A DNA stretch of 46,718 nt from Candidatus Parendomicrobium reticulitermitis. Lineage in GTDB: Bacteria; Elusimicrobiota; Endomicrobiia; Endomicrobiales; Endomicrobiaceae. Of the stretch, positions 3,479-45,614 are shown piece by piece (the stretch's first letter is position 1; every line of letters begins with the position of its first letter). The translations under genes were made by a program, and so were the position numbers. The stretch spans positions 1 through 46,718 of the forward strand of contig JAITTG010000058.1 in NCBI GenBank assembly GCA_031287095.1, read 5' to 3'. The notes under the pieces were generated by a model. The model did no database searches. It was given only the letters and a program-made list of their open reading frames with translations, and was not told the DNA's origin.

Positions 3479-3512
3479 AAACATATTGAAAAAACAATAT
3501 GAAACCCAAAAT

Positions 3513-3565
3513 CCCCAAAACTTCGTATGGGCGGGTTTGAAACCCGCCCATACGAAGTTTTGGGG
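3513..3565. terminator. Perfect 26-bp stem hairpin between convergent genes
   Basis: The 53 bases form a perfect palindrome around position 3539: the left arm opens CCCCAAAACTTCG and the core is GGGCGGGTTTGAAACCCGCCC. It lies between the end of the MscS gene (plus strand) and the M23 peptidase gene (minus strand), so it could end both transcripts. T-rich sequence follows on the plus side. Imperfect relatives occur at about 26030-26095 and 35640-35690, so it is also a member of a repeat family. Confidence 0.55.
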
Positions 3566-3704
3566 TTTGTTGTTTGGATTTTTTTGTTTTTTGGGGTTTT
3601 GTTTTTTGTCGTTTTTTCCCTTTATGCATGAGACGCGCATAGTCTTAACGCAAGAATGACAGACTACGGAATTTATCATATATAGCCGCAAAACATAGCC
3701 AGCC

Positions 3705-17029: not shown

Positions 17030-17464
17030 ATCCTATAACCTCCAAAATATATTTTATCGGGTTCTTAACCTTTATAGAAATATTTATCTCGGATTGGCGG
17101 GATAATATCAAAAAGCGGTTTAAAAGACAAATTCTCTCGTTTTTTAAAGGCAGAGAGAGAAAAGACGGCAAAAACCGAGAAAAATGAATGTAGAAACGCG
17201 CTAAAAACAAAAAAAGGCGGGACTAACTGACGCTTTGCGTTACGCTCTGCGATTTACCCCTCTCCCTCAAGGGGAGAGGGAACAATGGCGCGCTTTGCGA
17301 TGAAAGTGGATTTCCGATAGGGACGCTCGGGAATGACGAATAAAAAACGGCGGAGATTGCGGGTATTGCCCGCAATGACAAAGCCAAAACCCGCAACGAC
17401 AAAACAAAAACCTGCAAAATCAAAGTCCGCATACGGCAAAAGGGGTTAGTTAGTCGGCGGGTTT
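17030..17464. repeat. Repeat-rich gap downstream of ftsW
   Basis: No gene is visible. The gap holds several palindromes: CCCCTCTCCC/GGGGAGAGGG-type hairpin near 17256-17280 (related to the one at the far right edge of the window), and ATTGCGGG/CCCGCAAT at 17356-17376. The latter belongs to the family that also occurs at 18788 and 41895 and, as an insert, in murF. Confidence 0.55.
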
Positions 17465-18685: not shown

Positions 18686-18787
18686 TATTCCTGCGCCTTA
18701 AACAAACATTTATTATAAATTGCATCTATTCCTATATAGAATTATCAATCAAATTGAAATTAATTGCAGGCTTGACTCATGTTTGCG

Positions 18788-18816
18788 CCGTTGCGGGCTT
18801 GACCCGCAAGCAACGG
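18788..18816. repeat. Palindromic repeat (CGGGCTTGACCCG type)
   Basis: CCGTTGCGGGCTTGA followed by CCCGCAAGCAACGG forms a nested stem. It lies between murD and ftsW, and the same core occurs at 41895-41911 and in diverged form at 17356 and 21667. Confidence 0.6.
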
Positions 18817-21369: not shown

Positions 21370-21540
21370 AGGAGCGGCAAAGCCGCGATATGCACGACTG
21401 GCTCTAAGTTAAGCGCAGGACTGAAAGGTCGCTTTGCCTTTTGGCGTCTTTTGACACAATTTGTCTGCTTGGATAGCGCCGCTATACGCGCGCAGACAAA
21501 TTCTGCCAAAGGACGCTCAAAATGCTTTGCGGAGCGGGAG
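21370..21540. repeat. Inverted repeat arm L (about 165 bp), partner at 26118-26285
   Basis: Sequence from about 'ggcaaagccgcgatatgcac' to 'caaaatgctttgcggagcg' matches the reverse complement of 26118-26285 with few differences, including 'ctaagttaagcgcaggact' and 'gccaaaggacgctcaaaatg'. The arm itself contains a smaller palindrome: 'acaatttgtctgc' facing 'gcagacaaattctg'. The two arms bracket the substrate-binding protein, murF and murE. Confidence 0.75.
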
Positions 21541-21579: not shown

Positions 21580-21710
21580 CTCGTAGGGGCAGACCTATGC
21601 GTCTGCCCTCATCAAATAAATTCATCATTAAATCATAAATCCGCCGTGCAGGTTTTTGTTTTGCGGGCTTCGTGTTCGTTGCGAGCTTGACCCGCAACGA
21701 CGATATAGGA
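21580..21710. repeat. Short palindromic repeats in the gap before mraY
   Basis: GGGGCAGACctatgcGTCTGCCC (about 21585-21606) is a hairpin of the same type as the insert in the trmH-like pseudogene. A diverged CGGGCTTG...GACCCGCAACGA unit follows near 21667-21705. No gene is seen. Confidence 0.5.
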
Positions 21711-22940: not shown

Positions 22941-24371
22941 CTATATATCCTTATTTATCATTCCAATCATAATTTCCATTTTCATGCCTCTGGAACCTTT
23001 TACTAATATTACTGTGTTGGAAGTTATTGACAGCGTTTTTAAGTTTTCTAATAAATCTTGGGCAGTCGGGGCGTAGAATACATTGCCGCCTTTTAATGCT
23101 TGCGCGGTATTGGACATATCTTTGCCGGCAAGATACGATGCTTTTACTTTTTGTTTGCTGATAAATTCTCCTAATTCTTTGTGATATTTTGAGGAGTCAA
23201 CGCCGAGTTCTAACATATCGCCCAAAATTAGGATTATGTCTTTGTCTGCGTAAGTTGCGCATATTGTTTTTATTGATTCTTGCATTGACGAGGGATTGGC
23301 ATTGTAGGCGTCATTGATTATTACTGCGCCGCTTTTTAGCGTTGTGATTTCCATACGCATTCTTGGAGGAGTAAAATTTTCTATGCCTATTTTAATATCG
23401 TTTATTGAAAAACCAAAACCGCTCGCTATGGCGGCGGCGCATAGCGCATTTTTTATAAAAGTTTCCCCTTTTTGTGTTGAGTTTATGGGAATTGAATCAG
23501 AACCTATATATAGTATAAAACTGACGCCGTCTTTGTTGATTTTTATGTTGTCTGCATAAATACTCGCCTTGTTTTGAATTGAAAAATCAATCACTTTTTT
23601 AAATTCACTATGTCCGTCATTGCTATCAATTAGTCTGTCATTATGGGCTTGACAACCATTAAGCCTGCAATGACGGAAAGTGTTAAGATATTCATCGTCT
23701 GTATTTAGAGCAATGAAACCGTCTTTGGCAAGATATTTGAAAATATTTTTTTTCTCTTTAAATACCCCTGCGGGGGTTTGGAAAGTTTCGAGGTGCGAAC
23801 AGCCTATATTGGTGATTGCGGCGGCATCGGGGGCGAGTATGTTTGCCAAAATGTCTATCTCGCCAAAAAGTGAAGAGCCGATTTCTAATACCGCGTATTT
23901 ATATGAAGAGTCCAATTCAAAAATTGAAAGAGGCGCCCCTATTCTATTGTTGAAATTGCCTTTGTTAGCGAGAGTTTTATATTTTCTGTTTAAAATTGAA
24001 AATAAAATTTCTTTTGTGGTGGTTTTGCCGTTTGAGCCTGTGATAGCCGCTACTTTTAAGTTTTTAAAACTGTTTCTGTATGCCTTTGCCGCCTCGCCTA
24101 AGGCGATAATTGTGTCTGATACTTCTATTATGGCAATGTTTTTTGAGATATTGATAGGTTTTGAAACAACTATACCCGCCGCGCCCGCTTCTATCGCTTG
24201 CGGGATAAAATTATGTCCGTCAAAATTTTCGCCTTTGATAGCGAAAAAAAAATCGCCTTCTTTGATTGTCCTTGAATCAATTGAGATGTTTTGAATTGGT
24301 AAATCTGAACTTCCTGATATGAGATTTGCTTTTGCCGCATTGACCAAATCTTTAATAAAAAAATCTTGCAT
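22941..24371 (-). CDS. murF: UDP-MurNAc-tripeptide--D-alanyl-D-alanine ligase, with an in-frame palindromic insert
   Basis: A 476-residue ligase that adds D-Ala-D-Ala to UDP-MurNAc-tripeptide. Signatures: SIDSRTIKEGDFFFAIKGEN in the N-terminal domain, the ATP loop ITGSNGKTTTKEIL, GNFNNRIGAPLS, LEIGSSLFGEID, NIGCSHLETF, and VIINDAYNANPSSMQ in the C-terminal domain. Residues about 232-252 (FRHCRLNGCQAHNDRLIDSN region) come from a 63-bp palindromic repeat between CCGTCATTGC ends. It is a whole number of codons, so the frame survives. The start ATG overlaps the murE stop by one base (TAATG), implying translational coupling. Confidence 0.94.
   Translation of the reverse strand: MQDFFIKDLVNAAKANLISGSSDLPIQNISIDSRTIKEGDFFFAIKGENFDGHNFIPQAIEAGAAGIVVSKPINISKNIAIIEVSDTIIALGEAAKAYRNSFKNLKVAAITGSNGKTTTKEILFSILNRKYKTLANKGNFNNRIGAPLSIFELDSSYKYAVLEIGSSLFGEIDILANILAPDAAAITNIGCSHLETFQTPAGVFKEKKNIFKYLAKDGFIALNTDDEYLNTFRHCRLNGCQAHNDRLIDSNDGHSEFKKVIDFSIQNKASIYADNIKINKDGVSFILYIGSDSIPINSTQKGETFIKNALCAAAIASGFGFSINDIKIGIENFTPPRMRMEITTLKSGAVIINDAYNANPSSMQESIKTICATYADKDIILILGDMLELGVDSSKYHKELGEFISKQKVKASYLAGKDMSNTAQALKGGNVFYAPTAQDLLENLKTLSITSNTVILVKGSRGMKMEIMIGMINKDI
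23614..23676. repeat. 63-bp palindromic element inserted in frame in murF
   Basis: The two ends CCGTCATTGC (23614-23623) and GCAATGACGG (23667-23676) are perfect inverted repeats, and the interior 'atgggcttgac' and 'ttaagcctgc' echo the CGGGCTTGACCCG intergenic repeats. Length is 21 codons exactly. The encoded 21 residues sit in the central domain and have no counterpart in the usual MurF pattern. Confidence 0.7.
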
Positions 24372-26117: not shown

Positions 26118-26285
26118 TGTATGAGACGCGCTCCGCGAAGCATTTTGAGCGTCCTTTGGCAGAATTTGTCTGCGCGCGTATAACGGCGCTATCCAAACAG
26201 ACAAATTGTGTCAAAAGATGCTGCGACCTTCCAGTCCTGCGCTTAACTTAGAGACAGTCGTGTGTATCGCGGCTTCGCCGCACAT
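26118..26285. repeat. Inverted repeat arm R, partner of 21370-21540
   Basis: Reverse-complement match to 21370-21540. It begins near 'gcgctccgcgaagcattttg' and ends with 'atcgcggcttcgccgc' next to the stop of the lolC/E gene. Just upstream (26030-26095) is a GGGTTTGAAACCC palindrome related to the hairpin at 3513. No gene lies in the 390-bp gap. Confidence 0.75.
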
Positions 26286-39545: not shown

Positions 39546-39718
39546 TAGACCTCTTGCATACAAAAACGACTAACAATAAAATCTCAAATAACGGTATTTT
39601 ATGGATTCTGCGACTTCGCGCACAATGACAAACCCACTTTCGTGCAGACAGTTCCTATTAGCGTATAATAATACCTATACTCTTATATTCTTTGCATATC
39701 AGTTGTGCAAGAGAACTA
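39546..39718. mobile_element. MITE-like element, copy D (173 bp), at the rimI start
   Basis: Begins TAGACCTCTTGCATAC three bases from the rimI ATG and ends GTTGTGCAAGAGAACTA. The interior has 'attctgcgacttcgcgca' and 'attctttgcatatcag' as in other copies. Read on the minus strand its end supplies the sequence just upstream of rimI. Confidence 0.65.
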
Positions 39719-41894: not shown

Positions 41895-41911
41895 TGCGGG
41901 CTTGACCCGCA
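41895..41911. repeat. Palindromic repeat TGCGGGCTTGACCCGCA
   Basis: A perfect six-base-plus stem with loop CTTGA, in the gap between mfd and the PpiC lipoprotein. It has the same core as 18788-18816. Confidence 0.6.
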
Positions 41912-45384: not shown

Positions 45385-45614
45385 TAGGAGCCTGTCATTC
45401 TGCGCGAAGCCGCAGAATCTATAGAATAAACCTCTTTTTTACTAACAACAAAGGCTTGAAGAACTGCATAAAATGGATTCTGCGGCTACGCACAGAATGA
45501 CAGACATAGCGCGCAGAATGACAAGCCCGCTTTCGCACAAACGGATTCTGTTAGCGCGCAATGGCAATGCCTATATTTTTACATTTCTTGTATATCAGTT
45601 ATGCAAGAGATCTA
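45385..45614. mobile_element. MITE-like element, copy E (about 230 bp, left end degenerate)
   Basis: The right end GTTATGCAAGAGATCTA and the interior are well kept, with two ATTCTGCG hairpin units and 'actaacaacaaaggcttgaagaactgc', the same as in copy A. The left end has only TAGGAG...GTCATTCTGCGCG, so it is eroded or rearranged. It lies in the 600-bp gap upstream of mfd, where I see no gene. Confidence 0.65.

Follow-up and report, generated by a model that had tools for sequence, protein, structure and literature searches.

Background

The CGTC-tagged REPs are palindromes with an unpaired CGTC (or TGTC/CCTC) end tag, an 8-9-bp stem in which A-T pairs come first, a 4-5-nt loop and a short unpaired tail, mostly CCA; they are found predominantly as head-to-head dimers, with an 8-bp stem and a 5-nt loop in class CGTC-2, and have no dedicated transposase (PMC3733652). 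They have been listed for Proteobacteria, Chlorobi, Bacteroidetes, Spirochaetes and Thermotogae, five phyla from which Elusimicrobiota is missing, and two of the Rickettsia palindromic elements (RPEs) belong to them, RPE-4 being a CGTC-4 REP and RPE-6 a CGTC-1 REP (PMC3733652). The Rickettsia elements lie in frame, at solvent-exposed positions, in unrelated genes (PMC3767692). In Wolbachia, the CGTC repeats and the palindromic elements of the genus (WPE) are stated to be unrelated (Di Nocera et al., PMC3733652). A literature search for REPs in Elusimicrobiota found no report, and CRISPR is the only palindrome mentioned in the Endomicrobia genome paper.

The window analysed here is one 46.7-kb contig from the draft assembly (2.16 Mb in 125 contigs) of an Endomicrobia MAG (Elusimicrobiota), referred to as G000. 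The sole congener genome found among its relatives, G001, is also a draft assembly, and gene calls in both are ORF-based.

Results and discussion

An in-frame insert in murF

The product of murF, an essential cell-wall gene, scored 393.8 bits against TIGR01143 (cut-off 288.6) and contains the Pfam domains Mur_ligase, Mur_ligase_M and Mur_ligase_C; its closest matches are in Endomicrobia / Elusimicrobiota, and its model matched the solved MurF 4qf5 with a TM of 0.94 in Foldseek. An earlier note on this DNA had described a 63-bp element with perfect inverted ends inside the gene, and the sequence, CCGTCATTGCTATCAATTAGTCTGTCATTATGGGCTTGACAACCATTAAGCCTGCAATGACGG, is as described: the ends CCGTCATTGC / GCAATGACGG form a perfect inverted pair, with one extra complementary base on each side (23613-23677). 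The element begins at the third base of codon 232, ends at the second base of codon 253 and does add 21 residues to MurF, which we place at 233-253 rather than at about 232-252. Positions of the gene, the parts of its insert and the REP copies are given in Table 1.

Table 1. Location of murF, the components of its insert and the REP copies within the window
Feature	Position	Strand	Basis
murF, UDP-N-acetylmuramoyl-tripeptide--D-alanyl-D-alanine ligase, 476 aa	22941..24371	-	TIGR01143, Pfam, Foldseek
63-bp in-frame palindromic insert, residues 233-253 RHCRLNGCQAHNDRLIDSNDG	23614..23676	-	sequence, relatives' alignment, hairpin z-scores
5' REP head, gene orientation, CCGTCATTGCAGGCTT	23661..23676	-	15/16 identity to REP consensus
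Second REP-like head, inverted, CTGTCATTATGGGCTTGAC	23635..23653	+	sequence
Third unit, 21 bp, CCGTCATTGCTATCAATTAGT, provides perfect outer inverted end	23614..23634	+	compare 23-bp tandem units at 944-1003
REP copy, 3 mismatches	17357..17379	-	consensus search
REP copy, 2 mismatches	18787..18809	+	consensus search
REP copy, 3 mismatches	21675..21697	+	consensus search
REP core GGGCTTGACCCG	41898..41909	+	sequence

The stretch corresponding to MurF residues 226-262 has 37 residues in G000, 26 in G001 and 15-21 in 51 other relatives drawn from many phyla. In each of alignment columns 236-253 at most one of these 51 has a residue, and homologous residues at the insert position were absent in 51/51 relatives outside the genus and in all Endomicrobia outside the genus that were examined; relatives with such residues but no palindrome, which the earlier note had named as counter-evidence, were thus not found there. 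When the 21 residues are removed, the flanks DDEYLNTF and HSEFKKVIDFS join into a normal MurF. The AlphaFold model has a mean pLDDT of 93.1 and falls below 50 only at residues 242-244 and 249-254, in a loop of the central domain between helix 227-238 and strand 259-264. The insert loop is predicted to be the only disordered stretch in an otherwise confident fold, and its low confidence places the insert at a putatively surface-exposed, non-conserved position. Alignment and predicted structure agree with a loop insertion at residues 233-253, and positions 23614-23676 of the window are an in-frame insertion in murF.

Composition of the insert

Inverted ends alone were dropped as evidence, since their number is not above chance: the window has 18 perfect pairs of 10-nt arms and its shuffles have 1-20. 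What raises the insert above chance is its fold, its match to the REP consensus and the lack of homologous residues in relatives. Its hairpin had a z of -3.9 as RNA and of -4.7 as DNA with flanks, and 0/200 shuffles were as stable. The score of its match to a single REP was reached by 0/1000 shuffles, as was that of one dimer form, while two other dimer forms match less strongly (3/1000 and 11/1000). The proposed kinship with the CGGGCTTGACCCG intergenic palindromes proved right, the inner part of the insert, CTGTCATTATGGGCTTGAC, being a diverged copy of CGTCATTGCGGGCTTGAC. The insert can be identified as a CGTC-type REP copy of compound and decayed form, with a third arm and about 5-6 mismatches in the core; because of this divergence its exact boundaries are estimates.

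The 9-mer CTAATTGAT is present both in the insert (23620-23634) and in the murF of G001 (L006, about 2243-2253), just downstream of the REP, possibly by chance or as a trace of the formation of the compound insert. The 21-bp third unit of the insert is similar to tandem 23-bp units at 944-1003 of the window, each of which opens with a YGTCATT head.

The REP family in the two genomes

The main palindromic repeat of G000 has the REP consensus YGTCATTGCGGGCTTGACCCGCAATCTCC. At up to 3 mismatches it was found 141 times in G000 and 48 times in G001, with 0 matches for the reversed pattern, so that the absence of further genomic copies, also named beforehand as counter-evidence, does not apply. At up to 2 mismatches it was found in 13/60 related genomes, all of the same family. 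About 70 stretches of G000 and 28 of G001 were read for copies, which in G000 took in all but the weakest 41 of the 141. The bases GTC are preceded, at position -1, by C in 56-81% of copies and by T in 17-38%; consensus copies have the form ATTGCGGG-CTTGA-CCCGCAAT, an 8-bp stem with A-T pairs first around a 5-nt loop, and end in the tail CTCC, each base of which is present in 57-93% of copies. Among the loci read there were 37 head-to-head dimers of 63-87 bp, the only arrangement counted.

Other palindromes also occur. A second CGTC-like family, GTCATTCTGCGCGAAGCCGCAGAAT, with 56 copies in G000 and 25 in G001, lies at 931-1003, 1725-1749, 39605-39629 and 45392-45503 of the window. Two related imperfect palindromes (GCAGACAAATTCTGCCAAAGGACGC type) at 21439-21521 and 26148-26222 flank the murF-murE genes, and a near-continuous palindrome of 101 bp, with 50-nt arms that are 82% complementary, occupies 3489-3589.

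One Y1_Tnp gene was found in G000 (L206 2135-2578) and none in G001. No CGTC REP was present at its flanks, where different repeats occur, and it was therefore rejected as the mover of the REPs. Three 93-bp repeats lie beside it (L206 2623-2900), and related inverted repeats, unlike the CGTC REPs, flank the gene.

REP copies in other genes and comparison of the two species

The search for further in-gene copies that the earlier note had suggested found many. Copies lay inside ORFs of at least 120 aa in 37/115 cases read in G000 and 19/46 in G001, and at least 20 domain-supported genes, counted over both genomes, carried the REP in frame. The Pfam-supported carriers in G000 were genes for an ABC transporter ATPase, an AMP-binding enzyme, a PIF1-like helicase, an FAD-oxidase, a miaB-like radical SAM protein, the CCA-adding enzyme and two glycosyltransferases, together with metH, uvrD, aroB, uxaA, recG and nadB; those in G001 were glyS, larC and genes for PTS HPr/EI, DUF2779, radical SAM, sulfatase, FAD-oxidase, AMP-binding and CCA-adding proteins. 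Nine ORFs (L043, L151, L165, L176, L179, L183, L195, L197 and L198) were left out of this list for want of Pfam support or because the REP lay near a doubtful 5' end. The long REP-bearing L151, L176, L179, L197 and L198 resemble upstream extensions or ORFs rich in repeats; they have Chlamydia-PMP-like repeats or no Pfam match, and the common peptides FPNVSPTPSLPSV and VGADPRVCP beside their REP suggest yet other coding or overlapping repeats. In the altronate dehydratase gene of G000 (L163 281-1909) three successive REP readings follow each other with a 36-bp period, and in-frame tandem growth therefore also happens.

Orthologue alignments showed the element in one species and not in the other for the ABC transporter, metH, uxaA, nadB, glyS, PTS, DUF2779, larC, radical-SAM and sulfatase genes. 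Such differences between congeners suggest that CGTC REPs moved recently in this group. The insertion site is common to both species in the FAD-oxidase and CCA-adding enzyme genes, with in-frame loss of part of the dimer in G000 for the former and in G001 for the latter, and the left insertion boundary is the same in both for the AMP-binding gene. The murF of G001 carries a perfect REP copy, read RHCGLDPQSP, in the same loop as the G000 insert. Since it is offset about 9 nt further on (flanking bases counted) in a loop of poorly conserved sequence, one shared insertion and two hits on a permissive loop are both possible.

Length, reading frame and distribution

Head-to-head dimers within ORFs were mostly 65 or 83 bp long (66 and 84 from CGTC), and 82 and 83 bp were commonest outside. 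Length plus one was a multiple of three in 14/14 dimers in ORFs versus 9/23 elsewhere (Fisher p 2.4e-4), a result partly built in because the ORF criterion already demands a stop-free reading; out-of-register dimers can be stop-free too. REP dimers usually have two of three frames open on each strand. The frames of the other copies were recorded, as the earlier note had advised: by a hand count that excluded two insertions near gene ends, the reading RHC...RND was used in 24/25 supported insertions and the other open frame in 1/25 (p about 1.5e-6 if both open frames are equally likely). The used frame, RHCGLDPQS...EIAGQARND, is hydrophilic, with a GRAVY of mostly about -1.1 versus -0.7 to 0.2 for the alternative, and the inverted dimer can give it in either orientation. 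No report of the peptide RHCGLDPQS was found in a literature search, and none of it in solved structures.

REP clusters lay in ORFs of at least 200 aa in 36/119 cases in this genus versus 2/42 in two other genera with this repeat (p 5e-4), which fits greater tolerance here, a burst of more recent date or an element that is better suited. Random 83-bp stretches of this genus fall in long ORFs in 55-63% of cases, so the REP clusters are below expectation, in keeping with landing at random and later loss of harmful copies. In the second palindrome family (ATTCTGCG type), taken as an internal comparison, 3/30 clusters lay in long ORFs, and those are doubtful.

Origin of the murF insert

We consider it highly probable that the murF insert is a compound copy, since decayed, of a REP of the CGTC type, a small non-autonomous element spreading through the genus, and that it now forms a neutral translated loop. 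The REP would spread as a single unit or a head-to-head dimer, and its copies would land in genes just as elsewhere. Insertions that disrupt the frame, bring in a stop or fall in folded parts would be purged by selection; the remaining copies would occupy surface loops, such as the helix-to-strand loop in the central domain of MurF, would be translated, and would then decay through point changes and in-frame deletions. Given such removal of harmful copies and survival in surface loops, the MurF insert would thus be a neutral extra loop made from selfish DNA.

Three other explanations were weighed. An ordinary expansion of the MurF loop with a chance palindrome, bearing no tie to the REP family, would suit the divergence of the murF copy from the consensus, and in this window it is not unusual to find perfect 10-nt inverted pairs so spaced; however, the consensus match exceeds all 1000 shuffles, the hairpin stability (z -3.9 to -4.7) and the same kind of insertion in at least 20 genes speak against it, and the perfect REP in the same murF loop of the congener largely refutes it, making this a highly improbable origin. 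It is scarcely credible that the insert is absent from the mature protein, being bypassed in translation or spliced from the mRNA. Translational bypassing elements and self-splicing sequences exist elsewhere and the mRNA hairpin is strong, but a self-splicing intron would be much longer than 63 bp, and the in-frame state of all coding dimers, with near-exclusive use of the stop-free hydrophilic reading, would be needless if the insert were removed. Domestication, in which the inserted peptides are retained for a function such as interaction or a regulatory tag, is quite improbable. One peptide does turn up in many proteins, and some insertions are common to both species (FAD-oxidase, CCA-adding enzyme, AMP-binding); yet the shared inserts have decayed differently in G000 and G001, several insertions are confined to one species, the carrier genes have no evident common feature, and the MurF insert is conserved only in its first few residues.

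A neutral loop left by a spreading REP is therefore the reading we retain. It is unlikely, though conceivable, that the REP dimer of this genus has itself been shaped to be harmless in genes, as a selfish element selected to tolerate translation. The size classes of 66 and 84 bp from CGTC, as multiples of three, fit this idea, and since the hydrophilic frame can be read in either orientation, the peptide added would be the same mild one whichever strand takes up the insertion. If true, it would explain why intragenic copies are few in other genera with the same REP.

Comparison with known palindromic elements

By tag, stem, loop and dimer form the REP described here appears to fit the CGTC-tagged REPs (Di Nocera et al. 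2013, PMC3733652), and best CGTC-2: it shares with them the unpaired CGTC/TGTC tag, the 8-bp A-T-first stem with its 5-nt CTTGA loop, the occurrence of head-to-head dimers, the presence of some copies inside ORFs, encoding 20-30 aa, and the lack of a dedicated transposase, the one Y1 gene found having no CGTC REP at its flanks. It differs in its tail, CTCC rather than the CCA described, which is similar but not identical, and in its high intragenic share. The REPINs and GTAG REPs with RAYT transposases are likewise inverted REP dimers dispersed in the genome, but membership among them was rejected, the tag here being YGTC and the RAYT-like Y1 gene of G000 being flanked by other repeats that do not match. 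The coding palindromes of nematomorph mitochondria (PMC6649704) are also inverted repeats read as protein, but they are long and perfect, up to 284 bp, and of another origin.

In behaviour the element is, as far as sequences tell, RPE-like, with in-frame insertion in unrelated, otherwise conserved genes. RPE-4 and RPE-6 agree with it in their in-frame position in unrelated genes, housekeeping genes included, in their ATGAC ends, in the 84-bp length of an RPE-4 example and in that orthologues carry different elements close to one site (PMC3767692, PMC3733652), and differ in consensus, host phylum and peptide. RPE-1 to RPE-3 and the Wolbachia palindromic elements are also palindromes coding protein in frame; the Rickettsia repeats, at 100-150 bp (PMC3767692), are longer than those here. 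The likeness to RPEs drawn in the earlier note thus holds, but the family is not wholly independent, since the repeats fit CGTC REPs as RPE-4 and RPE-6 do; nor is such behaviour limited to Rickettsia and a few other symbionts, intragenic REPs being already known beyond Rickettsia and Wolbachia, in O. terrae, Thauera and others (PMC3733652).

The two congeners differ in their carrier genes, which allows direct comparison of empty sites with new and with decaying insertions and makes the genus a good system for testing what lets inserted DNA survive as protein. The recent movement of CGTC REPs that is suggested here would have taken place in a group from which no transposase for these REPs is known. 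Because the element works like the RPEs, and RPE-4 and RPE-6 are CGTC REPs, we regard it as a prolific representative of a known kind: protein-coding palindromes, until now mainly from Rickettsia, appear to be newly seen in the phylum Elusimicrobiota. Protein-extending mobile DNA, best known from the intracellular Rickettsia, would thus recur in a distant phylum through the REP superfamily to which RPE-4 and RPE-6 belong.
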